A model generated the notes under the pieces. It worked only from the letters and a program-made list of their open reading frames with translations. It searched no databases and was not told the origin of the DNA. Position numbers and translations under genes: made by a program. From IMG/VR virus record IMGVR_UViG_3300046787_000408, positions 235,984 to 299,983 of that record: a stretch of 64,000 nt of DNA. The stretch is one strand, 5' to 3'. Position 1 is the first letter of the stretch; each line of letters opens with the position of its first letter. This DNA comes from a virus. Positions 26,988 through 54,907 of this stretch are shown here, piece after piece.

Positions 26988-26990
26988 TGA

Positions 26991-27845
26991 ATGAGCGAAA
27001 CTACTACACCTGAATTTGACATTGCTATCTTGTTGCCCACTCGCGGGCGATCAGATTCACTTGAACGCAGTATCAAAAGCGTTATTGAACTAGCATCTGA
27101 TGCTAGTCGTGTGCAGTTGATGTTTGGGTTTGACAACGATGACCCAGTGGGTATTACTCACTTTGTACAAGAACTGCAACCCTGGCTGGATCAGCAAAAT
27201 GTTAACTACACTGCTATCAAGTTTCCGCCTTTGGGTTACATTCGACTCAACGAATATGTTAACGAACTAGCTCGCAAGAGCGATGCACGTTGGTTGGTAT
27301 TCTGGAACGACGATGCTGTAATGGAGACTCAAGGCTGGGACTCCAAGATCATGGAGTGGGAAGGCAAGTTCAAGTTGCTGGCCTTTCATACTCACAACGA
27401 TCATCCGTATAGTATTTTCCCTATTGTGCCTCGCAAGTGGTTGGATCTGTTGGGGTACTTGAGTCCGCATCAAATCTCTGACGCTTGGCTGAGTCAGCAG
27501 GCGTATATGCTAAACATTTGGCAGCGTATTGAAGTTGATGTATTGCACGATCGGCATGACCTTACTGGCAACAACAATGACGAAACATTCCAAAATCGTC
27601 CCATGTTGGAAGGAAATCCTGCCAACCCCAAGGACTTTCACAGCATGACACAGATGGACATTCGTCACCGAGACTGTCATAAAATTGCCGAGTATTTGAG
27701 AACACAAGGTATTGACTTGACATTTTTTGATCAAGTGTTCCGCGGTGAACAAGATCCCTGGGAACACCTTGCCAAGAATGATGTAAACCGTCAAATGATG
27801 CAGTTTAAAAATCCGCATACACATTTCCAAACAGGTGCCAAATGA
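26991..27845 (+). CDS. GT-A type glycosyltransferase-like protein
   Basis: A 284-residue protein beginning with a GT2-like fold: IAILLPTRGRSDSLERSI near 11 (donor-binding), FGFDNDDP near 43, and WLVFWNDDAVME near 98, the D-x-D-type metal site. C-terminal residues are His/Asp rich. It would add a sugar using a nucleotide donor. It follows QueD by 3 bp and overlaps the methyltransferase, so it belongs to the same modification operon. Confidence 0.7.
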   Translation: MSETTTPEFDIAILLPTRGRSDSLERSIKSVIELASDASRVQLMFGFDNDDPVGITHFVQELQPWLDQQNVNYTAIKFPPLGYIRLNEYVNELARKSDARWLVFWNDDAVMETQGWDSKIMEWEGKFKLLAFHTHNDHPYSIFPIVPRKWLDLLGYLSPHQISDAWLSQQAYMLNIWQRIEVDVLHDRHDLTGNNNDETFQNRPMLEGNPANPKDFHSMTQMDIRHRDCHKIAEYLRTQGIDLTFFDQVFRGEQDPWEHLAKNDVNRQMMQFKNPHTHFQTGAK

Positions 27846-28630
27846 CACACATGACTCTTGAAGAACGTATCAAAAAATACTGGAATACACAACCATGTAA
27901 CATCAAGCACGGTCAAAGTGATATTGGCACAACAGAGTTCTTTCGCGAAGTAAGTGAACGCAGATATCGTGTTGAGCCGCACATTGCTGAGTTTGCTGGT
28001 TTCCATTTGTGGGCTGGTAAACGTGTGCTGGAAATTGGTTGCGGCATTGGTAGTGATGCTGAAGAGTTTGCCAAACACGGTGCTGAATATGTGGGTATTG
28101 ATCTGTCAGATCAGAGTATCGCACTAAGTCAGCAAAGGTTTGAAACACTAGGGCTTGAAGGTGAGTTTCATAATGTTGATGCAACAGATGCTGCCGCTCT
28201 AGCCAAACTAGGCGAGTTTGACCTTGTGTACAGTTATGGTGTTATCCATCACTTTCCTGGCATTGACAAAATCATCAGCAATGTGCAAGCAGTTATCAAA
28301 CCAGGTGGCGAGTTCCGTTATATGGTGTATGCCAAGAACTCTTGGAAGTATGCTATGATCCAAAAGGGTCTGGACCAATTTGAAGCACAAGCTGGTTGTC
28401 CGTATGCACAAGCGTTCTCCAAAGATGAAATACATCAACTGATGAACGAGCAAAACGGTTGGCACATTGAGAGGTTGCGTCAGGACCACTGTTTCATGTA
28501 TAATGTAGACTCGTACAAGGCAGGACGCTATGAGTTAGAACCGTGGTTTGAGGCCATGAGTGAATCACATCGTCAAGCTGTTAGAGAATATCTAGGTTGG
28601 CATCTTTTAGTTAAAGCAAAGAAATTATGA
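27842..28630 (+). CDS. class I SAM-dependent methyltransferase
   Basis: A 262-residue protein with motif I VLEIGCGIGSDAEEF at about 60-74, a D in GIDLSDQSI near 88, and LVYSYGVIHHFPG near 129, the classic small-molecule methyltransferase fold. The last 80 residues form a variable substrate cap. It overlaps both neighbours by ATGA and sits directly before QueE. It could methylate a sugar, a deazaguanine derivative or another product of the cluster. Confidence 0.8.
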   Translation: MTHMTLEERIKKYWNTQPCNIKHGQSDIGTTEFFREVSERRYRVEPHIAEFAGFHLWAGKRVLEIGCGIGSDAEEFAKHGAEYVGIDLSDQSIALSQQRFETLGLEGEFHNVDATDAAALAKLGEFDLVYSYGVIHHFPGIDKIISNVQAVIKPGGEFRYMVYAKNSWKYAMIQKGLDQFEAQAGCPYAQAFSKDEIHQLMNEQNGWHIERLRQDHCFMYNVDSYKAGRYELEPWFEAMSESHRQAVREYLGWHLLVKAKKL

Positions 28631-29472
28631 AATTCAAAGTATCAGAACTGTTCTACTCAGCACAAGGCGAAGGCCGTTATGTAGGCGTTCCTAGTGTGTT
28701 CCTTCGCATGTTTGGCTGTAACTTTACCTGCTCTGGGTTTGGCTGCAAGCCTGGTGAAAAAAGCACAGGAGCAGATGAAGTAGCCAAGACTGTGGAACTG
28801 TACAAAACGTTTGAAGAATTGCCATTGGTGAGCACAGGATGTGACAGCTATGCAAGTTGGCATCCAGCCTTCAAACACTTGAGCCCAAGCTATACTGCTG
28901 AACAACTAGTGGACAAAATGGCTGCATTACTGCCACACGGTAACTGGTTGCAACCTAATGGGAACCCAGTACACTTGGTTATCACAGGCGGCGAACCACT
29001 ACTGGGCTGGCAACGAGCATATCCTGAACTGCTGGACTTGTTGCATGCACGTGGCTTACGACACATCACATTTGAGACCAACGGTACTCAGGAACTGTCA
29101 AGAGAGTTTAGAACATATCTAGACGACTGGCATGGTGAAATTACATTTAGTGTCAGTCCCAAGTTAAGTGTCAGTGGCGAAAAACGTGAAGACGCTATTC
29201 GTCCAGAAATTGTGTTTGACTATGAAACACATGGTATCACATATCTAAAGTTTGTGGTAGACAAGATTGCAGACTTTGACGAATTGGATCAAGCAGTAGA
29301 TGAATATCGACTGGCTGGATTTGCTGGTCCTGTGTTTGTGATGCCAGTAGGCGGTGTGGTTAGTGTGTATGATGGTAACAGAATTCATGTTGCAGACGAA
29401 GCACTCAAGCGCGGTTACTGGTATACTCCAAGATTGCATGTGGATCTTTGGGGTAATGGCTGGGGGAAATAA
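28627..29472 (+). CDS. queE: 7-carboxy-7-deazaguanine synthase, phage-type
   Basis: A 281-residue radical SAM enzyme forming the 7-deazaguanine skeleton. SELFYSAQGEGRYVGVPS near the start and TGGEPLL near 124 are QueE hallmarks. The cluster Cys are CNFTC (31-35), with later GCKP and TGCDSY Cys, not the simple CxxxCxxC; a large insertion sits inside the loop, as in cyanophage QueE. No QueC is visible in this window, so preQ0 formation needs a host or distant gene. Confidence 0.85.
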   Translation: MKFKVSELFYSAQGEGRYVGVPSVFLRMFGCNFTCSGFGCKPGEKSTGADEVAKTVELYKTFEELPLVSTGCDSYASWHPAFKHLSPSYTAEQLVDKMAALLPHGNWLQPNGNPVHLVITGGEPLLGWQRAYPELLDLLHARGLRHITFETNGTQELSREFRTYLDDWHGEITFSVSPKLSVSGEKREDAIRPEIVFDYETHGITYLKFVVDKIADFDELDQAVDEYRLAGFAGPVFVMPVGGVVSVYDGNRIHVADEALKRGYWYTPRLHVDLWGNGWGK

Positions 29473-38600: not shown

Positions 38601-38939
38601 ATGAACACAAAAACAGTAACCCGTAAAAAGCGCTCAGATCGTACTCACATCATTTACATGATTGAGTCGGGCTCTGACTTCTATATTGGTGTTACTGCTA
38701 AAACTGCATCAACTGTGAAACTGAGTGTTATGACTCGTTGCCGCAAGCACCTGTATCGTTCACGTAGCGAAGACAAGAGCTGGATGCTGTACGAAACCAT
38801 GCGTGAGCGTGGTGTTGGTGAGTTCACTGTGCGTGTTTTGGATGTGGTGCGCGGCAAGACTCAAGCCCACAACCTGGAGCGTGGCTTGATCCGTGAGATG
38901 AAGCCAAATTTGAACACAGACGTGCGTGGTGTTGCATAA
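38601..38939 (+). CDS. GIY-YIG endonuclease-like protein
   Basis: A 112-residue protein with IIYMIESGSDFYIGVT near 17-32, which fits the GIY-YIG core, then RCRKHLYRSRSED and ERGLIREMKPNLNTD near 93-107, where the catalytic Glu and Asn would lie. Standalone GIY-YIG proteins cut DNA as homing or restriction enzymes. It starts only 6 bp after the -10, so the message is close to leaderless. Confidence 0.7.
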   Translation: MNTKTVTRKKRSDRTHIIYMIESGSDFYIGVTAKTASTVKLSVMTRCRKHLYRSRSEDKSWMLYETMRERGVGEFTVRVLDVVRGKTQAHNLERGLIREMKPNLNTDVRGVA

Positions 38940-38951: not shown

Positions 38952-39179
38952 ATGAGAACACAATTACAAGCCGAAATGAAACGCATTCGTGACCTGTTGC
39001 CCACAGAGTTGTTTGAAGGCAGCAAGGACTGGCGCGAAGGCAATACAGTTGAACGCATTGAATGGCTGCTTTCCATGTACGAAAGTTCAAAGCAAGAAGT
39101 TGAGCGTTTGGAAAAGTTGGTCGACGATATTGAAGATGATCTTGCTACCGAAAGGCAGTTTAACTTTGATCGGACTTGA
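38952..39179 (+). CDS. small coiled-coil protein
   Basis: A 75-residue acidic protein. The second half (QEVERLEKLVDDIEDDLATE) is a heptad coiled coil. AAGGAAC precedes the ATG. Its 3' end overlaps the -35 of the next promoter. Unknown function. Confidence 0.6.
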   Translation: MRTQLQAEMKRIRDLLPTELFEGSKDWREGNTVERIEWLLSMYESSKQEVERLEKLVDDIEDDLATERQFNFDRT

Positions 39180-39204
39180 CAAATAATACTAAAGGTGTTA
39201 TACT
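39176..39204 (+). promoter_or_regulatory. sigma70-type promoter
   Basis: TTGACA at 39176-39181, 17-bp spacer, TATACT at 39199-39204. It drives the operon containing the 118-residue protein, the NadM-Nudix gene and the Nampt gene. Confidence 0.75.
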
Positions 39205-39263
39205 AAGACTAAATACAAAGCAACGAGATAGACTCCGAGCACATTTATACAAAGGATTTTTGT

Positions 39264-39620
39264 ATGCCAAAAGCAACTACATTCACCATCAAAAAAGCCT
39301 ATGCACTGAGTGCAATAGACAAAGCAGGCAAGCGTGTCTATTACGACACTGACTCACACAGCGGCGGCTATCCATACTGGAGCCCGTACTTCAACCAACA
39401 CAAGACTTGGGAATCGCTGGGCAAGATTCCAACATTCTCCAGCACAGACTACATGCGTCGAGATGTTACAGTCATCGAAGCACTTGAAGTTAAAATTCAA
39501 GCCAAGGTAGTTTCTACTACTGAAATCGTTTCAGAAGCACGAGCAAAGGCCATGGCAGAGATTGCCAAAATTGAACAAGAACTGCGCCGCAAAGTCGCCA
39601 TGTTGGAAGGTACAAAATGA
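39264..39620 (+). CDS. hypothetical protein heading the NAD operon
   Basis: A 118-residue protein (MPKATTFTIKKAYALSAIDK start) with a YYDTDSHSGGYPYWSPY segment near 28 and a C-terminal helix (AEIAKIEQELRRKVAML). AAAGGAT lies upstream. ATGA overlap with the NadM-Nudix gene means coupled translation. I see no catalytic motif. Confidence 0.6.
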   Translation: MPKATTFTIKKAYALSAIDKAGKRVYYDTDSHSGGYPYWSPYFNQHKTWESLGKIPTFSSTDYMRRDVTVIEALEVKIQAKVVSTTEIVSEARAKAMAEIAKIEQELRRKVAMLEGTK

Positions 39621-40633
39621 AAAAATACGATACCTTGGTCCTTATTGGACGCTTTCAACCTTTTCATAACGCTCACTTGGAGATTGTCAAGCGTGCCACC
39701 GCACTTTGCGATCGGCTGATTATTGTTGTTGGTAGTTCGCGCCAACCACGCACTTACAAGAATCCATTTACGTTCGAAGAACGTGCGCGAATGATTCGCG
39801 AAGCTACCATGGGCCTTAGCTTGCAGATTGCCATTGAACCCAACACTGATACTATCTATAACGATCAAGCCTGGGCAGTTCGTGTACAGCAAATTGTGGC
39901 ACAACACACCAAGTCCGGCGAACGTGTGGGTATCATTGGTCACAAAAAAGACGACAGCAGTTTCTACCTTGACATGTTCCCACAGTGGGGTTACGAAGAT
40001 GTCGAGCTGGTAGAATTCCTTAGTGCCGTTGATGTACGTGACTTGTATTTCAAATGGACTTTTAACAGCAACTTTATCAAGAACGTTGTTCCTGAATCAG
40101 CTTATGATTTCTTAATGGCCTTTCGCCAAACTGAAGAGTTTGCACAGACCATTCGTGAACGCGAGTTCATTGCAGAACACAATAAACAGTATGCAGGCCT
40201 CAAGTATCCTCCAATTTTTTCGACTGCTGATGCAGTTGTGATTTGTTCAGGTCATGTGTTGATGATCAAACGCCGTGCCGAGCCAGGTCGAGGTTTATGG
40301 GCACTGCCCGGTGGCTATGTCAATGCTCGAACTGACAAGTCGGTAGAAGATGCGGCTATCCGTGAACTACGCGAAGAAACTATGATCAAAGTACCAGCTC
40401 CAGTTTTGCGTGGTAGCATTCAACGCAGTAAGGTGTTCGATGCTATCGACCGTAGCCCAAGAGGACGTATTATTACTCATGCGTTTCACATTCAATTACC
40501 CGACGGCGAACTGCCTAAGGTAAAAGGAAGCGATGACGCTGAAAAGGCACGGTGGGTGCCTATTGCAGAAGTCCGGTCGGAGGACTGCTTTGAAGACCAC
40601 TACGAAATCCTGCAACATTTTGTAGGTGCCTAA
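39617..40633 (+). CDS. nadM: bifunctional NMN adenylyltransferase / Nudix hydrolase
   Basis: A 338-residue two-domain enzyme. Residues 10-20 (IGRFQPFHNAH) carry the H-x-x-H nucleotidyltransferase motif that joins NMN and ATP to NAD+. The C-terminal domain has a Nudix box near 230-255 (GGYVNARTDKSVEDAA, then RELREET), which hydrolyses nucleotide diphosphates such as ADP-ribose. This fusion is known from cyanobacteria and phages. With the next gene it forms a two-step nicotinamide-to-NAD+ route. Confidence 0.9.
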   Translation: MKKYDTLVLIGRFQPFHNAHLEIVKRATALCDRLIIVVGSSRQPRTYKNPFTFEERARMIREATMGLSLQIAIEPNTDTIYNDQAWAVRVQQIVAQHTKSGERVGIIGHKKDDSSFYLDMFPQWGYEDVELVEFLSAVDVRDLYFKWTFNSNFIKNVVPESAYDFLMAFRQTEEFAQTIREREFIAEHNKQYAGLKYPPIFSTADAVVICSGHVLMIKRRAEPGRGLWALPGGYVNARTDKSVEDAAIRELREETMIKVPAPVLRGSIQRSKVFDAIDRSPRGRIITHAFHIQLPDGELPKVKGSDDAEKARWVPIAEVRSEDCFEDHYEILQHFVGA

Positions 40634-40674
40634 GCGATAGACGCAAAGGCTTTTAACTTTAAAGGAACTTTAAA

Positions 40675-42072
40675 ATGAAACTCGCAAAAAATCTTATCCT
40701 CAACACTGACAGCTACAAAGTCAGTATGTTCAAACAATATCCAGCAGGAACCACAGGTGTATACTCGTATATTGAGTCGCGGGGCGGACGTTACAATCGA
40801 ACAGTTATGTTCGGACTCCAGGCCTTTATCAAAGAGTACTTGCTCGAACCAATCACTCAAGCAGATATCGATATCGCTGATGAAATCCTTACCGCACACG
40901 GTGAGCCTTTCAACCGAGCAGGATGGCAGTACATTCTTGACAAGCGCGACGGATACCTCCCAGTTGTTATTCGATCCGTCCCTGAAGGAACAGTGGTACC
41001 TGTGTCCAACGTCTTGGCAACAATTGAAAACACTGATCCAGAGTGCTTCTGGTTGACCACTTGGTTGGAAACAGCCCTGCTTCGTGCAGTGTGGTATGGT
41101 ACTACTGTGGCAACACAAAGTTATACAATTAAACAAGTGATTCTTGACTACTTGGAGAAGACAGGTGAACCTAGTACTATTGATTTTAAGTTACACGATT
41201 TTGGTGCTCGTGGTGTTAGTAGCATGGAGAGCGCAGGAATTGGTGGGGCGGCACACTTGGTTAATTTTATGGGTACGGATACTATTACTGGCGTGCTTTT
41301 TGCTAGGGAGTATTACAATGCTGGCGTCGCTGGGTTCTCCATCCCAGCCGCTGAACACAGCACAATCACCAGTTGGGGTCGTGACGGAGAAGTTGACGCC
41401 TACCGAAACATGCTCAACCAGTTTGCCCGTGCAGGCAGTGTCCTCGCCGTTGTTTCTGACAGCTATGATATCTACAATGCTGCCAGCAAGCTCTGGGGAG
41501 AAGAACTGCGTCAACAAGTAATTGACAGCGGCGCTACTGTTGTTATTCGTCCTGACAGCGGTGATCCTGTTGAAGTTAACCGTAAGCTGGTTGAGATCCT
41601 GGGAGAGAAGTTTGGGTACACAGTAAACGCTAAAGGCTTCAAAGTGTTGAACAATGTACGTCTTATTCAAGGTGATGGCATCAACGAGCTTACAGTTCGT
41701 AGTATTCTTGGTGCGTTCATGGCCATGGGCTGGAGTGCCGACAACATTGCTTTTGGTATGGGTGGCGCTCTACTTCAAATTGTAGATCGTGACACACAGC
41801 GTTTTGCAATGAAATGCAGTGCTATGCAAATGAACGGTGAGTGGGTTGATGTTGTCAAAGACCCTGTCACTGATCCTGGCAAGAAGAGCAAGGCAGGTCG
41901 TGTAACACTTTGGAAGTCAGGCGTTGAATTTGCATCAACTGTTGGACAGCCACTGAATTGGACAGACCAAGGCATTGGTCCTTGGACAGAGGCTTTGGAA
42001 GAAGTCTATCGCGATGGAAAGTTGATCAAAGAAATTGACTTTGCTACTGTGCGAGCCAACGCTAAAAAGTAA
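40675..42072 (+). CDS. nadV: nicotinamide phosphoribosyltransferase
   Basis: A 465-residue Nampt/NadV. It converts nicotinamide and PRPP to NMN. Family features include LNTDSYKVSMFKQYP near 10, LHDFGARGVSSMESAGIGG near 178, and RPDSGDPVE near 292 binding the phosphate. AAAGGAAC precedes the ATG. Paired with NadM, this matches the NARP2 NAD+ reconstitution route by which phages restore NAD+ destroyed by host defences. Confidence 0.93.
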   Translation: MKLAKNLILNTDSYKVSMFKQYPAGTTGVYSYIESRGGRYNRTVMFGLQAFIKEYLLEPITQADIDIADEILTAHGEPFNRAGWQYILDKRDGYLPVVIRSVPEGTVVPVSNVLATIENTDPECFWLTTWLETALLRAVWYGTTVATQSYTIKQVILDYLEKTGEPSTIDFKLHDFGARGVSSMESAGIGGAAHLVNFMGTDTITGVLFAREYYNAGVAGFSIPAAEHSTITSWGRDGEVDAYRNMLNQFARAGSVLAVVSDSYDIYNAASKLWGEELRQQVIDSGATVVIRPDSGDPVEVNRKLVEILGEKFGYTVNAKGFKVLNNVRLIQGDGINELTVRSILGAFMAMGWSADNIAFGMGGALLQIVDRDTQRFAMKCSAMQMNGEWVDVVKDPVTDPGKKSKAGRVTLWKSGVEFASTVGQPLNWTDQGIGPWTEALEEVYRDGKLIKEIDFATVRANAKK

Positions 42073-42087
42073 TACTTTAGCGCACCT

Positions 42088-42120
42088 AAAAAGTAGTACT
42101 TGTGTACTACTTTTTTTTTT
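42088..42120 (+). terminator. intrinsic terminator
   Basis: AAAAAGTAGTAC, 4-nt loop, GTACTAC and a run of ten T. It closes the NAD operon and has A and T tracts on both sides, so it could act in both directions. Confidence 0.85.
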
Positions 42121-46073: not shown

Positions 46074-46148
46074 GGGCCAATAGCTTAATGGTAAAGCAGT
46101 CGACTCATAATCGATTGAGTCTAAGTTCAATTCTTAGTTGGCCCACCA
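46074..46148 (+). tRNA. tRNA-Met or Ile2 (CAT)
   Basis: Acceptor GGGCCAA/TTGGCCC, loop CTCATAA with anticodon CAT, T arm CTAAG-TTCAATT-CTTAG, encoded CCA. Whether it is elongator Met or lysidine-modified Ile cannot be told from sequence. Confidence 0.88.
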
Positions 46149-46153
46149 AACAT

Positions 46154-46228
46154 CTGGCGTTCGTATAATGGATAATACACGGGTCTTCTAAGCCCTTTAT
46201 ATAGGTTCGATTCCTGTACGCCGGACCA
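46154..46228 (+). tRNA. tRNA-Arg (TCT)
   Basis: Acceptor CTGGCGT/ACGCCGG, loop CTTCTAA with anticodon TCT for AGA, encoded CCA. Confidence 0.85.
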
Positions 46229-46292
46229 CTATAGTATAAATTATTTCAATTACAGCAATAGAAATAATTTCAGACAAAAACAATGAATCTGC

Positions 46293-46321
46293 TTGATTTC
46301 ATTGCTATATACTATTACAAT
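46293..46321 (+). promoter_or_regulatory. promoter for the AhpC gene
   Basis: TTGATT at 46293-46298, 17-bp spacer, TACAAT at 46316-46321. The leader that follows has a CTCAGT/ACTGAG hairpin and AAGGAAA before the ATG at 46374. Confidence 0.65.
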
Positions 46322-46373
46322 AAACACTCAGTATAAACACTGAGACTCAACATTTTAACACAAGGAAATCAAA

Positions 46374-46943
46374 ATGAAAACAGTTGGCGATAAATTGGCC
46401 CCATTCGCAGTCACCGGCGTTCGTCCCGGTCAACCTGAAGATGCGTTTTATACCATCACAGACACCAGCTTTGAAGGCAAGTGGAAAGTAATCGTTTACT
46501 ACCCCAAGGACTTTACATTCGTATGCCCCACAGAAATTGTAGCTTACGACAAGTTGGCACAGGACTTTGCTGATCGTGACGCAGTGTTGCTCACAGGTTC
46601 AACAGACAATGAGTTCTGCAAAGTGGCTTGGCAAAATGCACACGCTGATTTGAAGAAGATCACACACCACCAGTTTGCTGACACACAACGTGCCACCTAC
46701 GATGCTGCAACCAACACAGTAAAGAACCTGAGCTTGATTGAACAATTGGGTGTGTTCTATGCTCCAGCTGGTGCCGCACTTCGTGCCACATTCATTGTTG
46801 ATCCCAACAATGAGATCCAACACGTTACAGTCAACAACTTGAACGTGGGTCGCAGTCCAGAAGAAACACTTCGTGTGTTGGATGCATTGCAAACAGGTGA
46901 ACTGTGTGCTTGCAACCGTACAGTTGGCGGCGAGACACTGTAA
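46374..46943 (+). CDS. ahpC: AhpC-type 2-Cys peroxiredoxin
   Basis: A 189-residue thiol peroxidase that reduces H2O2, organic peroxides or peroxynitrite. The peroxidatic Cys is C51 in FTFVCPTE. The resolving region is GELCACNR with Cys at 178 and 180. GSTDNEFCK near 75 is also AhpC-like. Length matches bacterial AhpC (about 187). It has its own promoter, and an AhpD-like reductase lies three genes downstream, an arrangement that can recharge AhpC without AhpF. Confidence 0.93.
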   Translation: MKTVGDKLAPFAVTGVRPGQPEDAFYTITDTSFEGKWKVIVYYPKDFTFVCPTEIVAYDKLAQDFADRDAVLLTGSTDNEFCKVAWQNAHADLKKITHHQFADTQRATYDAATNTVKNLSLIEQLGVFYAPAGAALRATFIVDPNNEIQHVTVNNLNVGRSPEETLRVLDALQTGELCACNRTVGGETL

Positions 46944-47566
46944 TGTTAGAAACTATATGCGACACATTAGTCGAAGCATATAGCCGCAACTGGATTACCA
47001 GTCGTGATGGCAATGTAAGTATTCGTCATCACGACCGTGATCACTTTTATATCACGCCTAGTGGTGTGCGTAAGCAAACGCTACAGCCTGATCAATTTAA
47101 AAAGATTAGAATTGTAAGTAGTCTTATGTGGACAGAAGAATTCTACACAGACATTAGTGCTAATTTAAAGCCCAGCGGAGAGATTCCCTTGCACTTTGGG
47201 TTACAAAAGAATATGGGTCAGCATAGCAATGATGTTAGGGTAGTAGTTCACTTGCATCCTACATATTGTGTAGCGGCTATGCATCGTGGTATTGAGTTAA
47301 GCAGCCTTGCTGATAGCTTTCCAGAACTCAGTCGTTATACAAGTGTGGCGCCTAACGTAGGAGATGTAGCACCTATCAGTCAAGAACTTGCTGATCGTTG
47401 CCATGAGAACTTGCAGTTAGATAACTACGGAAATATTGCTTATGACATTGTTGGGATCAAAGGTCATGGAGTAGTGGCTATTGACACTAGTCCGTGGCGT
47501 GCGTTTGAGCACATTGAACGATTAGAACATATTTGCCAAATTGTGTTGGCATCAGGAAAATATTAA
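46943..47566 (+). CDS. class II aldolase/adducin family protein
   Basis: A 207-residue zinc aldolase-like protein: GNVSIR near 25, KPSGEIPLHF near 75 with the catalytic Glu, VVVHLHPTYC near 98 with two zinc His, and a distal GHGVVA near 177. Relatives cleave L-fuculose- or ribulose-phosphates. The start overlaps the ahpC stop as TAATG. Its link to peroxide defence is unclear; it may recycle sugar phosphates. Confidence 0.8.
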   Translation: MLETICDTLVEAYSRNWITSRDGNVSIRHHDRDHFYITPSGVRKQTLQPDQFKKIRIVSSLMWTEEFYTDISANLKPSGEIPLHFGLQKNMGQHSNDVRVVVHLHPTYCVAAMHRGIELSSLADSFPELSRYTSVAPNVGDVAPISQELADRCHENLQLDNYGNIAYDIVGIKGHGVVAIDTSPWRAFEHIERLEHICQIVLASGKY

Positions 47567-47567
47567 C

Positions 47568-47966
47568 ATGTTGGATTGTTTGATCATTGGGGATAGTATT
47601 GCAGTGGGCACACACCAAGCAAGACCCGAGTGTGTGGCCTATGCCAAAGGCGGCTGGAATACCTGGCAATGGAATCGCGAATACTTGAACAAAGATTTGT
47701 CTGCCCGGACAGTTATTATCAGCTTGGGCAGTAACGACCACAAGGGCGTACGAACCCGAGCAGAGTTACAACGTATTCGTGAGAAAGTTGGAACAACTGC
47801 TAGAGTATTTTGGATCTTGCCTGCAATCAATCCAGACATTCAAGCAACAATCAAAAGCATGGCGGCAGAGTACGGAGATTCTGTACTGCCAATGACTCGT
47901 TTACAAAAGGATGGCGTACATCCTAGCTGGGCGGGTTATAAAGAATTAGCGGAGAAAACAAAATGA
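47568..47966 (+). CDS. SGNH hydrolase
   Basis: A 132-residue minimal SGNH/GDSL hydrolase: GDSIAVG near 8 (nucleophile Ser), the GGW block near 28, GSND near 54 and DGVHPSWAGY near 114 with catalytic Asp and His. All four blocks are present despite the short length. It would cut acyl esters. The stop overlaps the AhpD-like start. Confidence 0.8.
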   Translation: MLDCLIIGDSIAVGTHQARPECVAYAKGGWNTWQWNREYLNKDLSARTVIISLGSNDHKGVRTRAELQRIREKVGTTARVFWILPAINPDIQATIKSMAAEYGDSVLPMTRLQKDGVHPSWAGYKELAEKTK

Positions 47967-48478
47967 CAACATGGGTAGATCAACTCAAAGAAACCATCCC
48001 TGACTATGCCAAGGATACTCGACTCAACATTGACGCTGTGATCAAACGTTCGAGCTTGGCTCCTGAATTAGCTGAAGCTATTGCTCTAGCGGCAGCATTT
48101 GCCACAGGCAACACCAAGCTGTGGACCTGGATTCACAGTGTGTTGGCAGACCGCAAAGAAGCTGATGCAGCACTGACCGCTGCCTCAATCATGGCTCAAA
48201 ACAACGTTTGGTATCCATTCGTTGAAATGGCAGATGATCCTGCTTTAGCCGGGTTGCCTGCACAGTTGCGCATGAATGCTATTGCAAGTCATGGTGGAAC
48301 AACCAAGGCCAACTTTGAAGCTTACAGCTTGGCCGCAAGTATTGTGGGCAAGTGCCATTTCTGTGTAAAAGCTCACTATGAGACTTTGAAAGCAGAAGGT
48401 TACACTGTGGAACAACTTCGCGACATTGGACGTATTGCCGCAGTAGTTACCAGCACTGCCCGAGTGTTAGCCAACTAA
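47963..48478 (+). CDS. ahpD: AhpD-like alkylhydroperoxidase (carboxymuconolactone decarboxylase family)
   Basis: A 171-residue all-helical protein with the CHFC redox pair at 131-134 followed by AH at 137-138, the C-x-x-C-x3-H active site of AhpD. The family regenerates AhpC and has weak peroxidase activity; the length is close to mycobacterial AhpD (177). Overlaps the SGNH gene by ATGA. With AhpC it forms a self-contained peroxide-reduction pair in a phage. Confidence 0.85.
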   Translation: MTTWVDQLKETIPDYAKDTRLNIDAVIKRSSLAPELAEAIALAAAFATGNTKLWTWIHSVLADRKEADAALTAASIMAQNNVWYPFVEMADDPALAGLPAQLRMNAIASHGGTTKANFEAYSLAASIVGKCHFCVKAHYETLKAEGYTVEQLRDIGRIAAVVTSTARVLAN

Positions 48479-48492
48479 AATTAGTAGCTGTC

Positions 48493-49047
48493 ATGATTAG
48501 TTCTAGTCCAGACCGTGGCTGTTTCCAAATTGAGTGCGAACTCAAGCGAGTTGCTGAAGGCGACAAAACTGCTGAAGAAGCAAACGACATGATTGAGTTT
48601 TACCAGTCACATCGAGCACAAATTCGCGAAAAAGAAGCTGACCCTGAATGGCAGAAAAACAACATGGAGTTTGATCTCCGTGCCACAGACTGGATTGTGG
48701 CCAAAGTACGTGCATCTGAAGCTTACGCACAGAATCTGTATGCTGCCATGTGCAATCAGAACTTTCAGAAAAACGAAGTATGGTCTGTGTTGAAAAATCA
48801 AACCTGGGGTGCCAGCTGGCGCTATGCTGGAGGTATTGTTGCTGACATGCGTGGCGAAGGTGACTACATGGACTGGTACTGCTCGGGCATCCAAGGTGAC
48901 GCAGACATCGAAACCATGACTCCTGAGCAGCTGGAACGGCATCAATGGTACAAGGCCAACTTTGTGGGCGAAAGTGTAGTCACCAACGAGATCCGAGAAG
49001 ATCTAAAAAAATTAGGATGGTGGGTGGTAGAAGATGCTGTTGAATAA
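48493..49047 (+). CDS. hypothetical protein
   Basis: A 184-residue acidic protein (MISSSPDRGCFQIECELKRV start), helical in the first 90 residues, then Trp-rich (GASWRYAGGIVADMRGEGDYMDWY in part). No family recognised. ATG follows the AhpD stop by 14 bp; the end overlaps the PP-loop gene by 14 bp. Confidence 0.55.
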   Translation: MISSSPDRGCFQIECELKRVAEGDKTAEEANDMIEFYQSHRAQIREKEADPEWQKNNMEFDLRATDWIVAKVRASEAYAQNLYAAMCNQNFQKNEVWSVLKNQTWGASWRYAGGIVADMRGEGDYMDWYCSGIQGDADIETMTPEQLERHQWYKANFVGESVVTNEIREDLKKLGWWVVEDAVE

Positions 49048-50179
49048 TCGTTGTACCTACAACGCTGACAAGTTTGGATTCTACCAGTCTGGTGATATCA
49101 AAACCTACAGCAAAATAGAAGCTATTGAAGCCCAGAAACGAACTGGGCATTTTCCTGAATGGAATTTCAATAGGCCAGTGTTTGACAACATGAATTGGAA
49201 AGTTGAACCTCCTGGACAGTTGTGGGACTATTACAAGGCTCGTGCTAGACAAATACGCGAAAGTTATGACTATTGTGTGTTGTTTTATTCTGGCGGCAGT
49301 GATAGTCATAATATCCTTAACGCATGGCTAGAAGAAGGGTGTCAAATTGACGAAGTAGCAAGTTTTTGTTATTTTGATGCGGCTGGCACCCAATCTTTTA
49401 TGAACAGCGAAGTTGATCAAGTGGCAATTCCCATCATGAAAGAATTGGCCAAGTTTCAAAATATCAAATTCAGACTGATTGATTTTAGCAAGGATATAGT
49501 TGATGCAGTTGATCAGTTCTCCGATGAGTGGAAATATCTAAGCAACTTTCATTGGACGCCAAATTCCAAAACCATCTTGATGTGGCGCAAGCGCATTGAA
49601 GAGTATCGACGCATGATTGACGCTGGTAAAAAAGTTTGTTTTGTTTGGGGATCAGACAAGCCTAAGGTTTTTTACGATGGGAAGTTGTACTTTCAATTTG
49701 TTGATATTATTGACAATTGCATTAGTCCAAAAATGCAACAAGAATACAACAACGGGTTCTTTGATGAATTGTTTTACTGGACTCCTGACATGCCCGAAAT
49801 TGTGGTAAAGCAGGCACACGTGGTAAAACGTTTTGTTGAAACAGTGCATGATCCAGTGTTTTACGAACCAGCTGGTTCTAAAGATGCACACGGTTCCGGG
49901 TATAACAAGGTGTTAAAAACTCATTTGTCGCAGTGGGGACTCAAACAAGTAATATATCCTCGATGGGATCCTACCACGTTTGTTGATGGCAAAAGCCCTA
50001 GTCGTGTGTATAGCATACGCGATACTTGGTTTATCAACGGAAACTTGGACCAGAGCCAGAAGTTCCGAGACTTATCACAAGGATTTTTCTCATCTGTAGA
50101 TCAATACTGGCTGAGTGATACTAGCAATTTTTTAAAAGGAATCAAGGGCAGTGTTTCACCCAAGTACTACCTAGAGTAA
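49034..50179 (+). CDS. PP-loop ATP pyrophosphatase-type enzyme
   Basis: A 381-residue protein with CVLFYSGGSDSHNIL at about 82-96, the SGGxDS loop of N-type ATP pyrophosphatases, which adenylate a carbonyl or tRNA base. The N-terminal 70 residues and the long C-terminal half are unlike QueC or TilS. Because QueC is a PP-loop enzyme and none is otherwise visible here, a role in making preQ0 is possible. tRNA modification is the other possibility, given the adjacent tRNA array. Confidence 0.7.
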   Translation: MLLNNRCTYNADKFGFYQSGDIKTYSKIEAIEAQKRTGHFPEWNFNRPVFDNMNWKVEPPGQLWDYYKARARQIRESYDYCVLFYSGGSDSHNILNAWLEEGCQIDEVASFCYFDAAGTQSFMNSEVDQVAIPIMKELAKFQNIKFRLIDFSKDIVDAVDQFSDEWKYLSNFHWTPNSKTILMWRKRIEEYRRMIDAGKKVCFVWGSDKPKVFYDGKLYFQFVDIIDNCISPKMQQEYNNGFFDELFYWTPDMPEIVVKQAHVVKRFVETVHDPVFYEPAGSKDAHGSGYNKVLKTHLSQWGLKQVIYPRWDPTTFVDGKSPSRVYSIRDTWFINGNLDQSQKFRDLSQGFFSSVDQYWLSDTSNFLKGIKGSVSPKYYLE

Positions 50180-50184
50180 GAATA

Positions 50185-50191
50185 ATAAATA
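50185..50191 (+). promoter_or_regulatory. late-type box ATAAATA
   Basis: ATAAATA ends 5 bp before the ATG at 50197, with no Shine-Dalgarno, as at other apparently leaderless genes here. Confidence 0.4.
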
Positions 50192-50196
50192 CCAAC

Positions 50197-50376
50197 ATGA
50201 TTATCAACATCCATTTACAAAATACATTGTGGCAAACTCAAACCATACCAGGCCCTGGCTACAACGTCACAGAAATTCTGGACAGCATTGAAAGTGCTCG
50301 TGAGGCTGGTGAGCTGAATTGGTTGTTGTGGGATCAACCCTTACGGCTTGACATACAAGTCGTAGAGCCGCTATAA
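50197..50376 (+). CDS. small hypothetical protein
   Basis: A 59-residue ORF (MIINIHLQNTLWQTQTIPGP start) with alternating hydrophobic residues. The tmRNA promoter lies within its 3' end. No motif. Confidence 0.5.
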   Translation: MIINIHLQNTLWQTQTIPGPGYNVTEILDSIESAREAGELNWLLWDQPLRLDIQVVEPL

Positions 50377-50377
50377 T
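50348..50377 (+). promoter_or_regulatory. promoter of the permuted tmRNA gene
   Basis: TTGACA at 50348-50353, 18-bp spacer, TATAAT at 50372-50377. Transcription would begin near 50384, just before the acceptor piece. Confidence 0.7.
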
Positions 50378-50383
50378 ACAAGT

Positions 50384-50448
50384 TATTGCTGTATGAAGCA
50401 AAGAGAAAAGGATTCAAGACGCGGGGGCAGTGCCCGCCAGGTCCACCA
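50384..50448 (+). ncRNA. ssrA: permuted tmRNA, acceptor (3') piece
   Basis: Ends GACGCGG then CCCGCCAGGTCC and ACCA, the standard tmRNA 3' tail. The T arm is GCGGG (50421-50425), loop GGCAGTG, CCCGC (50433-50437). CAGGTCC (50438-50444) pairs through all seven positions, with one G-U, with GGGCCTG at 50669-50675 downstream. The 3' half therefore precedes the 5' half, as in two-piece tmRNAs of alphaproteobacteria, some betaproteobacteria and cyanobacteria. The exact 5' end is not defined. The T loop lacks the usual TTCGA. Confidence 0.85.
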
Positions 50449-50460
50449 TAAGGAAGTTTG

Positions 50461-50667
50461 ATGAGTCGTAGTAGTCCATGGTTAAGTAAAGATAGTCCAA
50501 AAACTCTCAAGGAGTTTTATATTGAACTACACCCAGATTGGGTAGAGATTGATGGTCAGTACTTAACTGAGGATAGATGGAACGACATCGAACCAGAGAT
50601 ACTGGTTGCCATGAAGCGAGAATATGTTAAGTGTTCTGAACTTCTTGGTTGGCAAGTTTCTTTATGA
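50461..50667 (+). CDS. ORF inside the intervening segment of the permuted tmRNA gene
   Basis: A 68-residue ORF (MSRSSPWLSKDSPKTLKEFY start; in-frame TTG at 50458) with TAAGGAAG 5-6 bp upstream. It begins 13 bp after the CCA of the acceptor piece and stops 1 bp before the 5' end of the coding piece, filling the intervening segment exactly. The acidic C-terminal half includes WNDIEPEILVAMKREY. No family recognised. Translation of the precursor before RNA processing, or from the excised segment, is implied. Confidence 0.6.
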   Translation: MSRSSPWLSKDSPKTLKEFYIELHPDWVEIDGQYLTEDRWNDIEPEILVAMKREYVKCSELLGWQVSL

Positions 50668-50668
50668 T

Positions 50669-50880
50669 GGGCCTGACACAGGATCGATTGGGTCAAGAGT
50701 AACAGAGTGGACAGCACGGCATGCAATCACCGACACAAGATTCTGAATCAAGGCTAGTCTTTGGTAGTAGGAACGACTTGGAAAACGAAGTAAACAAATT
50801 AAACGCAAACGACTCACAGTTCGCATTGGCCGCCTAAACGTAGCCTAGGGTAAGACATACCTCGTAACAGAAACTCAAGG
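50669..50880 (+). ncRNA. ssrA: permuted tmRNA, coding (5') piece with tag ANDSQFALAA
   Basis: Begins GGGCCTG, pairing with the acceptor piece, followed by the GGATCGATTGGG stretch typical of the tmRNA D-like region. A tag reading frame starts at GCA 50805: codons for A-N-D-S-Q-F-A-L-A-A and TAA at 50835-50837. The ALAA end is the canonical proteolysis signal. A terminator follows at 50882. Tagging would rescue stalled ribosomes and mark products for ClpXP. Confidence 0.9.
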
Positions 50881-50881
50881 G

Positions 50882-50898
50882 CCCACTTCGGTGGGTTT
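50882..50898 (+). terminator. intrinsic terminator after tmRNA
   Basis: CCCAC-TTCG-GTGGG stem with a UUCG tetraloop followed by TTT; only a short T run, so efficiency is uncertain. Confidence 0.6.
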
Positions 50899-50916
50899 CC
50901 TACTGAAAGGACTACT

Positions 50917-51537
50917 ATGAAAAAACTACTATTCATTACCGCGTTGTTGGCATCTGCAGTCAACGCACAAACTATCGATAACTGGACTGCATCTGGCGCT
51001 CCAGTAAAAAACAGCACCAACTTGTGCTGGCGCGATGCTAACTGGACTCCGGCTACTGCCCATCCTGATTGCGACGGAGCACTCAAGCCTGCACCGGTCA
51101 AGGCAGTTGCACCTGTTGCAGTACCAGTAACTGTAACTCCAGCAACACCAGCACCTAGGGCGGCTGAAGCTCCCAGGCCCTTGGTAATCAAACACTCGTA
51201 TGCCGCTGACGCATTCTTTGACTTTGATCGTGCTGTGATCCGACCAGAAGGCAAGGCCAAGTTGGACGCCTTGGTTGCACAGATCAGCAAGATCACTTTG
51301 GAAGTCGTGATTGCTGTGGGACACACTGACAGCGTTGGTACAGATGCTTACAATCAAAAGCTAGGCGATCGTAGAGCACAAGCAGTCAAGGCCTACTTGA
51401 TCAGCCGAGGTGTTGAGCGCAATCGTGTGTACACTGAAAGCCGTGGCGAGAAGCAACCTGTAGCAGACAACAAGACTTCTGTGGGCAGGGCCAAGAATCG
51501 CAGGGTGGAAATTGAAGTAATTGGTACTACCAAATAA
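50917..51537 (+). CDS. OmpA-like outer membrane/peptidoglycan-binding protein
   Basis: A 206-residue exported protein. Signal peptide about 1-18 (KKLLFITALLASAVNAQ). LCWRDANWTP near 36 is typical of betaproteobacterial OmpA-type proteins. A Pro/Ala/Val linker follows, then an OmpA C-terminal domain from about 95 with FFDFDRAVIRPEGKAKLD and GHTDSVGTDAYNQKLGDRRA, which binds meso-diaminopimelate in peptidoglycan. There is no beta-barrel, so it is periplasmic. It looks acquired from the host lineage. GAAAGGA ribosome site; own terminator. Confidence 0.85.
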   Translation: MKKLLFITALLASAVNAQTIDNWTASGAPVKNSTNLCWRDANWTPATAHPDCDGALKPAPVKAVAPVAVPVTVTPATPAPRAAEAPRPLVIKHSYAADAFFDFDRAVIRPEGKAKLDALVAQISKITLEVVIAVGHTDSVGTDAYNQKLGDRRAQAVKAYLISRGVERNRVYTESRGEKQPVADNKTSVGRAKNRRVEIEVIGTTK

Positions 51538-51548
51538 CACTAACAAAA

Positions 51549-51570
51549 GCGCCCAAGGGCGCTTTTGTTT
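51549..51570 (+). terminator. intrinsic terminator
   Basis: GCGCCC-AA-GGGCGC stem, extended by AAAA/TTTT, then TTTTGTTT. Ends the OmpA-like gene. Confidence 0.85.
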
Positions 51571-51596
51571 TGGGCAAAGTCTCAAACTTTCGTGTC

Positions 51597-51622
51597 AAAC
51601 ATGTGCGCACACGCACATGTTT
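51597..51622. promoter_or_regulatory. 11-bp inverted repeat, operator-like
   Basis: AAACATGTGCG (51597-51607), CACA, CGCACATGTTT (51612-51622). It covers the expected -35 position of a TATAAT at 51639-51644 ahead of the next gene, so a repressor or activator site is likely. Confidence 0.55.
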
Positions 51623-51692
51623 TGTTAGATAACCACTGTATAATAGCAACATAAACAATCAGTTTATAAATCATTTTTAAAAGGAAAAAATA

Positions 51693-52592
51693 ATGACTAC
51701 AACAATCACCATCAAAGACAAAGCAGTAAACACCACATACCAAAACGTTACTGGATTAACAGGCGGCGCAGGCGTTGATGCAGTATTTGATGTAACCAAA
51801 ACCAACGGAACATATTCTGTTGTGCTCGACAGCTTGGCAGCAAGTGCTGGTACAGGCTATGTGGCTGGCGACACAATCACTCTTGCTGGCACAGCCCTGG
51901 GTGGTACAGTTGCCAACAACTTGATCGTTACAGTTGCCACAGTTGGTGCCGCAGGTAAAATTGCCACATTTGGTGTGGTAGGTACAGGTCGTGTTGGCGA
52001 CGGTACAGTTGACGTTGCGGTTGATGTTACTGGTACCGAAGGCGTTGACACCTACACATTTGGGGGCTCCAGCACAGAATTCACTGTGACCAAGGCCGCA
52101 GACAAGATCACAGCAGCCAGCACCCTGGCTACCAATGTTTCATACACTCTTGAAGATCACGAGCGTGTGGTGTTCACAGACAAGGCCATTGCTTATGATG
52201 CTGACGGTCGTGCAGGTGATGTATATGCATTGTTAGCTGCCGCTTTGGGCACAGCAGATGTTACTGATGCGTATACTGGAATTGGTATCCATCTTGCTGA
52301 CGCTGGTTGGACCAACAAGCAATTGGCAGAAGCCTTGTTGGCCACAGACACTTACAAAACTGATGCTGGCGGCGTAAGCACAGAAACTTTCATCAAGCAC
52401 GTTTACAAAAACGTCACAGGTACTGACGCTACATTAGCTGATGTTACCGAACTTACCAATTGGATGAACGGTAACCAGTACAGCCAAGCTGATGTGTTGG
52501 TGATTGCTAGCGAGTTGGCCAGCTTTGAAACTGCTATTGGCTTGACTGGTCTTGCCACTACAGGCATTGACTACACGCCATTTGTTGCCTAA
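51693..52592 (+). CDS. S-layer/adhesin-like protein with DUF4214-like C-terminus
   Basis: A 299-residue acidic, Thr/Gly/Val-rich protein without Lys-rich signal peptide. Residues about 40-100 (AGDTITLAGTALGG) resemble repeat modules of phage and S-layer surface proteins. The C-terminal 130 residues (VYALLAAALGTADVTDAYTG, then FIKHVYKNVTGTDAT) resemble DUF4214 domains of type I-secreted proteins. AAAGGAA precedes the ATG. It could be a virion decoration or a secreted surface protein. Confidence 0.6.
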   Translation: MTTTITIKDKAVNTTYQNVTGLTGGAGVDAVFDVTKTNGTYSVVLDSLAASAGTGYVAGDTITLAGTALGGTVANNLIVTVATVGAAGKIATFGVVGTGRVGDGTVDVAVDVTGTEGVDTYTFGGSSTEFTVTKAADKITAASTLATNVSYTLEDHERVVFTDKAIAYDADGRAGDVYALLAAALGTADVTDAYTGIGIHLADAGWTNKQLAEALLATDTYKTDAGGVSTETFIKHVYKNVTGTDATLADVTELTNWMNGNQYSQADVLVIASELASFETAIGLTGLATTGIDYTPFVA

Positions 52593-52602
52593 ATTGACAA
52601 AA

Positions 52603-52646
52603 AGAGCAACAAAATATTTGACTTTTGTTGCTCTGTCATATATACT
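52603..52646 (+). promoter_or_regulatory. terminator hairpin with a promoter embedded
   Basis: AGAGCAACAAAA (52603-52614) pairs with TTTTGTTGCTCT (52623-52634), a strong stem after the preceding gene. The same bases supply a promoter: TTGACT at 52618-52623, 17-bp spacer, TATACT at 52641-52646. The predicted start is about 52652, at an ATG. Confidence 0.6.
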
Positions 52647-52651
52647 ACACT

Positions 52652-52750
52652 ATGATGACAGCAATCGCAATCACGTTTAAAAACATACCTGCCAATTATG
52701 AGCAGGCCTATGAGCGCGATTGTATCTCGGGGCTTTGTCGTTGTAGTTAA
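52652..52750 (+). CDS. 32-residue leaderless ORF
   Basis: MMTAIAITFKNIPANYEQAY start, ending GLCRCS. The ATG falls where transcription from the TATACT at 52641 should begin, and a strong terminator follows, so this is a self-contained micro-gene. Three Cys at the C-terminus. Function unknown; it may instead be a regulatory RNA. Confidence 0.4.
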   Translation: MMTAIAITFKNIPANYEQAYERDCISGLCRCS

Positions 52751-52774
52751 CAAAAGTACTACATTCTACAAAGA

Positions 52775-52796
52775 CCCGCACATGATGCGGGTTTTT
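52775..52796 (+). terminator. intrinsic terminator
   Basis: CCCGCA-CATGA-TGCGGG stem followed by TTTTT. Ends the micro-gene at 52652. Confidence 0.85.
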
Positions 52797-52904
52797 CTTT
52801 ATGTACTAGACCAATAATTGAAAGAGTGTTACAATAGAAACAAGTTAGAGATACAGCGAAGTTTGCAAAGACCCTACAGTGATGCGGGGCTTTTGCAAAA
52901 CAAG

Positions 52905-52933
52905 TTGACCAGTATTGCACATCGTGTTATACT
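52905..52933 (+). promoter_or_regulatory. sigma70-type promoter in RNA island
   Basis: TTGACC at 52905-52910, 17-bp spacer, TATACT at 52928-52933. Confidence 0.65.
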
Positions 52934-53000
52934 AGAGGCTAGTTAGGAAGAACAACAACTGCTCCGGAAACGGTAGCACTGCTAGAAGACACAGAAGCAG

Positions 53001-53029
53001 TTGACAAATATTCCCAACAGTGTTATAAT
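53001..53029 (+). promoter_or_regulatory. sigma70-type promoter in RNA island
   Basis: TTGACA at 53001-53006, 17-bp spacer, TATAAT at 53024-53029. Followed by GCAAC/GTTGC hairpin near 53039-53061. Confidence 0.75.
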
Positions 53030-53174
53030 AAACACTTAGCAACAAACGATCGAGTAGTTGCGTAGAATTCCTTAAAAATTTACATGTATGATTACCCGGC
53101 AAGACAACACTTGACACGATTTTGATGTTCGGTGATAACAGTCCGTAATGCTGTGAAGCAAAACGTAGCCGGGG

Positions 53175-53292
53175 ATCATATAAAAATGCACATTAGTTAG
53201 AAAGTCCAGCTAAGTTGAGCGTCCCCTGTAAAACGGGGAAAGAGCTAGAATTGCAGGTTAGTATTGCTTTTGTGTGTTTTTATATGATTTTT
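53175..53292 (+). ncRNA. structured RNA closed by long inverted repeat
   Basis: ATCATATAAAAATGCACA (53175-53192) pairs with the segment 53271-53288 with two mismatches, followed by TTTT. Inside is CCCC-TGTAAAAC-GGGG. This looks like a small structured RNA with its own terminator; class unknown. Confidence 0.5.
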
Positions 53293-53295
53293 GAT

Positions 53296-53371
53296 GCACT
53301 ACTTGCCTGAGCGAAAAACTCGTGGTAAACTACAAGAGACAGAGGGTTCGAATCCCTGGGACTGGTAGTGT
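53296..53371 (+). other. tRNA-like element without CCA
   Basis: GCACTAC (53296-53302) pairs with GTAGTGT (53365-53371), and an AGGG-TTCGAAT-CCCT T arm is present. Extra bases lie between T arm and acceptor strand, no normal anticodon arm is visible and CCA is absent. Degenerate tRNA or a tRNA mimic. Confidence 0.35.
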
Positions 53372-53380
53372 GTCTTTTAT

Positions 53381-53455
53381 ACTGGGTTCGTCTATCGGTT
53401 AGGACATCAGGTTTTCAACCTGAGAAGACGGGTTCGACTCCCGTACCCAGTACCA
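53381..53455 (+). tRNA. tRNA-Glu (TTC)
   Basis: Acceptor ACTGGGT/ACCCAGT, stem TCAGG/CCTGA, loop TTTTCAA, anticodon TTC, encoded CCA. Confidence 0.9.
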
Positions 53456-53519
53456 AGTTTATGAGTTCGTCTAGAAACCGGTAAATTGTAGTTTAGTCTA
53501 CAAGCTCGTAATTGATCAT

Positions 53520-53594
53520 GGTGCGTTCATATAATGGTCATTATCCTGGATTGTCTATCCAGAGACGGGAGTTCGATTCTCCCACGCATCGCCA
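53520..53594 (+). tRNA. tRNA-Asp (GTC)
   Basis: Acceptor GGTGCGT/ACGCATC, stem CTGGA/TCCAG, loop TTGTCTA, anticodon GTC, G discriminator and CCA. Confidence 0.9.
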
Positions 53595-53601
53595 AGTTAC
53601 T

Positions 53602-53690
53602 GGATCTTGTTCCCCATTGCCGGCTGTAACCCGGTAGGCATTGTCAAGTGGGGTGGTTGCCAAGTAGTTCGATTCTATCAAGATCCACCA
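53602..53690 (+). other. D-armless tRNA-Tyr-like element (GTA)
   Basis: Acceptor GGATCTT/AAGATCC with A and CCA, T arm AGTAG-TTCGATT-CTATC (one mismatch), anticodon arm GCCGG-CTGTAAC-CCGGT giving GTA, and a type II variable arm closed by GGCA/TGCC. Only 10 nt separate acceptor and anticodon stems, so no D arm can form. Unusual for bacteria or phages. Confidence 0.5.
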
Positions 53691-53766
53691 GTTTTATAGG
53701 AGAGTCGCTGCGAAGCGAATTCTTAAACGACCCGTAGAACTCCCGGGCGTCCTGTAGTTAGTATAT

Positions 53767-53851
53767 GGAGAATCCGCCGCAATGGTGTGGCAGGGGACTG
53801 TAAATCCTCCGACTTAGGTCATGACTGGTTCGATCCCAGTATTCTCCACCA
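53767..53851 (+). tRNA. tRNA-Tyr (GTA)
   Basis: Acceptor GGAGAAT/ATTCTCC, loop CTGTAAA, anticodon GTA, long variable arm, CCA. Canonical type II tRNA. Confidence 0.9.
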
Positions 53852-53857
53852 ATTTTT

Positions 53858-53997: not shown

Positions 53998-54004
53998 AGT
54001 TTAT

Positions 54005-54284: not shown

Positions 54285-54286
54285 TT

Positions 54287-54815: not shown

Positions 54816-54822
54816 AGTTAAT

Positions 54823-54900: not shown

Positions 54901-54907
54901 TGAATAT

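Follow-up and report, generated by a model that had tools for sequence, protein, structure and literature searches.

A covarying two-hairpin RNA leader, apparently undescribed so far, precedes the NAD+ salvage genes of a giant phage and its relatives

The final 64 kb of the 299,983-base virus record IMGVR_UViG_3300046787_000408 (bases 235984–299983, hereafter the window, 64,000 nucleotides in all), which comes from a large (giant), tRNA-rich phage, contain a short operon for rebuilding nicotinamide adenine dinucleotide (NAD+), and this locus raises the question of how the making of such enzymes might be controlled. An earlier note on this DNA had taken positions 39176–42120 for one promoter-to-terminator unit resembling NARP2, a phage NAD+ reconstitution pathway reportedly described by Osterman et al. 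in 2024. Coordinates, domains and a promoter/terminator scan agree with the unit: on the plus strand follow orf118 (39264–39620), an optional leading gene for a small protein with an SGGYPYW motif; nadM (39617–40633), encoding a fusion of nicotinamide mononucleotide (NMN) adenylyltransferase and Nudix domains and overlapping orf118 at ATGA; nadV (40675–42072), encoding a nicotinamide phosphoribosyltransferase (Nampt); and an intrinsic-terminator-like hairpin with a T run, found by the scan at 42088–42120. The note thus stands in what it observed and in part of what it made of it. It does not mention that structured RNA leaders lie at 39213–39266 and 40622–40677. This covarying leader RNA is what is new here, the enzymes being ordinary and orf118 optional, and the two-hairpin leaders probably serve, in an operon of NARP2-type salvage chemistry, as translational control answering a signal of the pathway.

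The element was first seen by aligning the leaders of orf118 genes, in which a nearly invariant block stands between promoter and start codon. It is an RNA of about 55 nucleotides, with hairpin P1 followed by hairpin P2. P1 has up to 8–9 pairs, in some cases with a symmetrical internal loop, and an invariant G-C closing pair over the loop AUAGA. P2 has the geometry N5-AAG-GAN-CUU-N5, with the Shine-Dalgarno sequence in its 5′ strand and loop, while its 3′ strand reaches the start codon. Copy 1 (39213–39266, plus strand), 5′ of orf118-nadM, has P1 at 39220–39240 with an internal loop in the stem and the G-AUAGA-C loop at 39227–39233, and P2 at 39247–39265, where 39247–39254 pair with 39258–39265. 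Copy 2 (40622–40677, plus strand) sits at the nadM-nadV junction, covering the last codons and the stop of nadM, with P1 at 40629–40649 (GATAGAC at 40636–40642) and P2 at 40658–40674 (40658–40664 pairing with 40668–40674). In the predicted fold P1 and P2 coexist and the Shine-Dalgarno sequence is paired in both copies, AAAGGA in copy 1 together with most of the orf118 AUG. A sigma-70-type promoter at 39176–39204 (TTGACA-17-TATACT, 11 of 12 positions, with a TG extended -10; by consensus scan only) puts the predicted transcript start at about 39211, so that the leader would consist of little besides P1 and P2; comparable promoters (11–12 of 12) stand 53–64 nucleotides 5′ of orf118 in 13 of 18 loci.

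Both stems are supported by strong comparative signals. Among 54 distinct leaders, 83% of the P1 cells are paired and 131 are changed on both sides, giving a covariation of 0.718 as compared with 0.164 for shuffled sequences and at most 0.175 for partners slid along the alignment. Two-sided changes occur in seven of the eight pairs, the eighth being invariant, and five pair types occur at pair 9–27, which is standard in all 54 leaders. Because the MAFFT alignment of whole leaders shifts P2 by one column between gene classes, that hairpin was scored on an anchored alignment of its own; in 42 distinct anchored sequences it is 91% paired, and its covariation of 0.641 compares with 0.163 after shuffling and no more than 0.150 after sliding. 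The P2 anchor was picked for best pairing, a slight lean towards structure, and few leaders had alternatives. The sequences are mutually related, for which the slid controls correct and the shuffles do not. The compensatory changes in both stems show a conserved structured RNA.

This RNA is placed with precision. The P1 motif GATAGAC is found 36–44 nucleotides 5′ of the start in 62 of 65 distinct nadV leaders, 46 of 72 nadM leaders and 16 of 18 orf118 leaders. In relatives without orf118 the element lies directly 5′ of nadM, and in nearly all relatives it also lies 5′ of nadV; many of the nadM genes without it have another operon gene directly upstream, which carries it instead. As a control, 577 other gene starts in nadM loci were read, and only seven have both hairpins, each of them belonging to a leading gene shortly upstream of nadM. 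A covariance model, R1, was built on P1 from a training set that includes the window copies, Xanthomonas phage LucasX and the nadV copy of Synechococcus phage B23. In the 300-kb record it finds two strong sites, namely the two copies described here (54.1 bits, E 3.6e-10, and 42.3 bits, E 2.1e-7, both as training-set members), and the next match has E 0.17. In Rhodobacter phage RcXuper and Ruegeria phage RpAliso, which are not in the training set, its sole matches fall exactly 5′ of nadM and nadV, and in LucasX and B23 its best matches do so.

Furthermore, two pattern scans of IMG/VR, blind to genes and counting as full an element with a P2 of at least six pairs, gave at least 111 full elements, some on contigs already among the earlier loci. 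Among the matches listed, 99 stand directly 5′ of a nad gene and seven more have one within 6 kb downstream (106 in total), three are cut by a contig end (two of these showing a nad start) and two are without a nad gene. In one contig (L292, around 3931 on the minus strand), a complete-looking P1-P2 precedes a gene for 86 amino acids, and the remaining 1.8 kb hold no nad gene. One element pattern, run over 84,980 species genomes to see whether bacteria have it, gave two matches; in each the motif falls within an open reading frame with no nad gene near, and these look like chance. No match for the element was found in Rfam 15, and neither the NAD+-I nor the NAD+-II riboswitch was found at E up to 1 in the window or up to 0.1 in six loci. 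The literature on phage riboswitches and on NAD riboswitches in phages, with subscription papers mostly outside reach, yielded no account of it. The leader RNA is apparently undescribed so far, and it is almost confined to phage NAD-salvage operons.

Among cultured phages, the GATAGAC hairpin is present in 4 of 17 isolates: LucasX, RcXuper and RpAliso have it on both genes, and B23 has it on nadV, its nadM carrying a variant. Other P1 loops stand before both NAD genes of Synechococcus phage BUCT-ZZ01 (L171; GAAAGAC) and Salicola phage SCTP-2 (L177; GGCGATAGAGCC). Klebsiella phage K64-1 (L181) has, in the same place before each of its two NAD genes (upstream of 2483 and 3623), a hairpin with the loop GUAG followed by a Shine-Dalgarno hairpin, which may be an analogue of the element that uses a different recognition loop. 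Hairpins like P2 over the Shine-Dalgarno sequence occur in the isolates at 21 of 29 nad genes as compared with 10 of 73 other genes (p 2e-8). Since such hairpins are commoner than P1, masking of the Shine-Dalgarno sequence may predate P1 or be more general than it, P1 being one means of acting on that masking.

The enzymes behind these leaders are familiar. NadV matches Pfam NAMPT_N (E 6.5e-27) and NAPRTase (E 2.9e-63) and the PHROG nicotinamide phosphoribosyltransferase (E 4.5e-163), and its closest solved structure is the Xanthomonas NAMPT 7yqo (E 6e-175). NadM matches CTP_transf_like (E 8e-15), NUDIX (E 2e-21) and phrog_395 (E 7.5e-81), with the cyanobacterial NadM 2qjo (E 3e-83) as its closest solved structure. 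NadV carries the Nampt catalytic motifs; its selectivity helix PGKKSKAGR, in a register assigned by eye, is like those of Xanthomonas and human Nampt, and it has Gly and Lys where the Namat of SPbetaL1 has Phe392 and Tyr396 (mutated to F392G and Y396K in Namat). Judged by these residues, it is an Nampt of the type using phosphoribosyl pyrophosphate (PRPP) and not a Namat using ADP-ribose pyrophosphate (ADPR-PP), and the route from nicotinamide through NMN to NAD+, as the note had proposed, is well supported by the two protein sequences. A phage-encoded Nampt and an adjoining phage-encoded NMN adenylyltransferase, the features of NARP2, are thus both found here by sequence. No PRPP-synthetase-like gene (Adps, PF13793) was found in the 300-kb record, which is possibly incomplete, the same search being positive in 14 of 14 control genomes; therefore PRPP must come from the cell. 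With no such gene in the record and with Nampt-type selectivity residues, identity with NARP1 was rejected. The note's further idea, removal of ADP-ribose products by the Nudix domain, is uncertain: in the Nudix box (residues ~230–255) the RELREE catalytic core is intact, but the Gx5E glutamate, kept in 2qjo, 2qjt and one locus (L038), is replaced by Lys or Arg with a two-residue insertion (TDK/TDR) in nearly all close phage NadM proteins; the substrate range of the domain may differ.

Neither is the pair rare. Nampt relatives are found in 1,913 phage records and NadM relatives in 468; nadM and nadV are adjacent in LucasX in the same order as in the window, and in B23 nadM is followed by nadV with two small genes between. 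The enzyme pair by itself is ordinary, both NAD+-rebuilding enzymes being already known from many phages.

How would the leaders act on this pathway? NadV would make NMN from nicotinamide and cellular PRPP, and NadM would adenylate NMN to NAD+. Ahead of the operon's first gene and again ahead of nadV, P2 would hide the Shine-Dalgarno sequence and lower translation initiation, and P1 would present its invariant AUAGA loop as the recognition site for a trans-acting signal that alters ribosome access. The signal could be a metabolite of the pathway (NAD+, NMN or nicotinamide), making the leader a riboswitch, or NadM or NadV, making it a device of autoregulation; it is probably derived from the pathway, given that one loop has been retained on one pathway by phages whose hosts are unrelated. 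Depletion of NAD+, for example by defence NADases, would then raise synthesis of the enzymes. The sequences show gene identity, operon layout, covarying RNA structure and the restriction to NAD-salvage operons; that the leaders control translation, what they respond to and in which direction, and that the operon serves counter-defence are inferred.

Several observations weigh against this account. All of its support is computational, and comparison carries the case, since the fold energy of the orf118 leader is unexceptional in this phage (z -1.6). For a metabolite aptamer P1 is small, being a simple hairpin whose five-nucleotide loop has no elaborate conserved core beyond it, and P1 and P2 fold side by side with no obvious alternative structure. 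P1 is absent 5′ of nadV in ACP17, Mx1, RAS14, XacN1, nt-1, IME-SM1 and others of the 17 isolates read, so the pathway does not need it. Neither an NAD+-depleting defence nor the host was identified.

As to what the operon is for, a counter-defence role is plausible by analogy. NadV-NadM was earlier surveyed as a phage NAD+ salvage module countering NADase effectors (PMC9503650), and NARP2 has been reported as letting phages overcome NAD+ depletion (PMC12300627; PMC11984713). The alternative is metabolic augmentation, in which the operon gives more NAD+ for phage replication and has no part in counter-defence. It draws on phage KVP40, whose functional salvage pathway is discussed as metabolism, to judge from the citation of Lee, Li and Miller (2017) in PMC6715854. 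Against it stand the NARP2 reports just cited and the absence from the 300-kb record of NAD+-dependent DNA ligase, SIR2, Macro and NADAR domains, which were looked for as phage NAD+ consumers that would give a reason for salvage. A search for RyR gave no match in any control genome. The alternative is a serious one that falls short of being probable.

As to what the leaders answer, two forms of the signal deserve roughly equal weight. In one, the AUAGA hairpin is an autogenous operator to which NadM, NadV or some other protein of the phage binds, repressing or activating its own mRNA. Coat proteins of RNA phages and ribosomal proteins regulate their own mRNAs this way. Hairpins recognised by proteins typically combine a fixed loop with a stem whose sequence is free, there are two copies inside one regulon, and the factor would travel with the genes, but no RNA-binding domain was recognised in NadM or NadV and the element is missing in some phages with the same enzymes, so that the operator must be offered tentatively.

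In the other form, the leader is a riboswitch proper that takes NAD+, NMN, nicotinamide or a metabolite related to these as its direct ligand and switches translation. Restriction to one pathway favours it, and a signal that is universal or encoded with the pathway would fit its persistence in phages whose hosts are unrelated; the bacterial NAD+-II riboswitches are likewise small leaders, with a pseudoknot overlapping the ribosome binding site (PMC10085692). Set against these are the lack of an Rfam NAD+ riboswitch match, of an extended conserved core and of a recognisable pseudoknot, and the fact that the stem sequence is free and the pentaloop alone fixed. We regard the riboswitch as possible but doubtful. 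The stronger claim, that this is a new phage-borne riboswitch class which senses a metabolite of the NAD+ pathway and switches on NAD+ reconstitution upon host NAD+ depletion, is somewhat unlikely; if true, a virus would here encode an RNA that senses an immune response, a phage riboswitch tied to the conflict between phages and bacteria. Less likely than either form is an element that senses nothing, with hairpins that hold translation at a fixed rate, shield the 5′ end or flag a site of processing. In its favour, P2 is similar to simple Shine-Dalgarno hairpins, and nad genes lacking P1 have such hairpins too; against it, a role of this kind would not explain why the element keeps to one pathway or why the AUAGA loop is constant from phage to phage.

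The note had also supposed that the 118-residue gene at the head of the operon may be part of the system. orf118 is a real gene under purifying selection (dN/dS 0.05–0.25). Its linkage to nadM is real too: of the 18 loci found initially, 17 have nadM next to it or shortly 3′ of it, frequently overlapping it at ATGA, and the link persists down to 45% identity (L038), while nadV may lie kilobases away; the exception (L014) is a 55-kb fragment without nadM. The supposition is weakened by the wider kin of orf118 and by its distribution: of the 80 closest nadM loci 17 have it, and unrelated small genes take its slot in some of the others. Through its core motif SGGYPYW it belongs with a larger group of small phage proteins (98% probability over 45 columns when profiles are compared), and Nampt is present in one of six records holding distant members. 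Diverse small phage proteins with D-x-x-S-G-G-Y-P-Y (L161–L165, and L121, Gordonia phage Mareelih gp38) are related to it. By these comparisons orf118 is an optional accessory gene, dispensable at the family level, and its wider family is mostly not NAD-linked. Relatives of orf118 are found on viral contigs only; tblastn against INPHARED gave no match at E up to 1, and the 84,980 species genomes gave none. No Pfam family matches orf118, the match to phrog_37251 is weak, and its AlphaFold model (pLDDT, the predicted local confidence, 84.5) has no informative counterpart in the PDB (Foldseek; VIA-align best Z 3.5), the best match in a viral fold library being an unnamed protein. Following the precedent of RyDEP gp78, which sits inside a NARP1 operon and cleaves cyclic ADP-ribose (cADPR) signals (PMC13232231), orf118 might be an anti-defence partner that binds or cleaves an ADP-ribose-type signal, as its linkage and selection would allow, but this is unlikely given a motif common to phage proteins from records mostly without Nampt, the lack of an informative fold match and its absence from most nadM loci.

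Two further families of small proteins occupy the orf118 slot at the head of nadM operons behind the same RNA leader, one of 108 amino acids (MSKLTLFAIEE...; L041, L080 and L105), the other with DPNCDFGGHH (L083, L094 and L107). The element thus leads to at least three families of small uncharacterised genes heading NAD-salvage operons. It is also a cheap marker, given that 106 of the 111 listed elements led to such an operon, and, confined to one pathway in phages of alphaproteobacteria, gammaproteobacteria and cyanobacteria, it offers a testable control point. Elsewhere in the window, an open reading frame weakly like a GIY-YIG endonuclease lies just 5′ of the operon (38601–38939), and 38 tRNA genes covering most amino acids lie at 46074–61298. 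Within 26463–29472, read by sequence, a QueD-like gene (26463–26987) and a QueE-like gene (28627–29472) suggest 7-deazaguanine synthesis, perhaps for DNA modification.

Phages are known to counter NADase immunity by rebuilding NAD+, and control of the timing of this response was not found described in the literature searched. Among known systems, NARP2 is the nearest in chemistry, since it also takes nicotinamide to NAD+ by phage-encoded Nampt and NMN adenylyltransferase; the operon in the window, known from its sequence, differs in its conserved RNA leader and optional first gene. nadV/natV of the large phage KVP40 provide the same two activities, functional in that phage, whereas the KVP40-like phage nt-1 is without the P1 element 5′ of nadV. 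The NadV-NadM modules of large phages (PMC9503650), such as those of LucasX and B23, share the order of nadM before nadV, and both of these phages have the RNA element, present but unannotated in their records. RyDEP is likewise a small additional gene within a phage NAD+ reconstitution operon (PMC13232231), but it has an RyR domain and accompanies NARP1 enzymes, whereas orf118 has another motif. Finally, the NAD+-II riboswitch (pnuC motif) is a short 5′ leader of an NAD-precursor gene and can mask the ribosome binding site, like the leader described here; it is bacterial and has a pseudoknot and an extended conserved core with no recognisable P1-type AUAGA hairpin, while the phage element matches nothing in Rfam.

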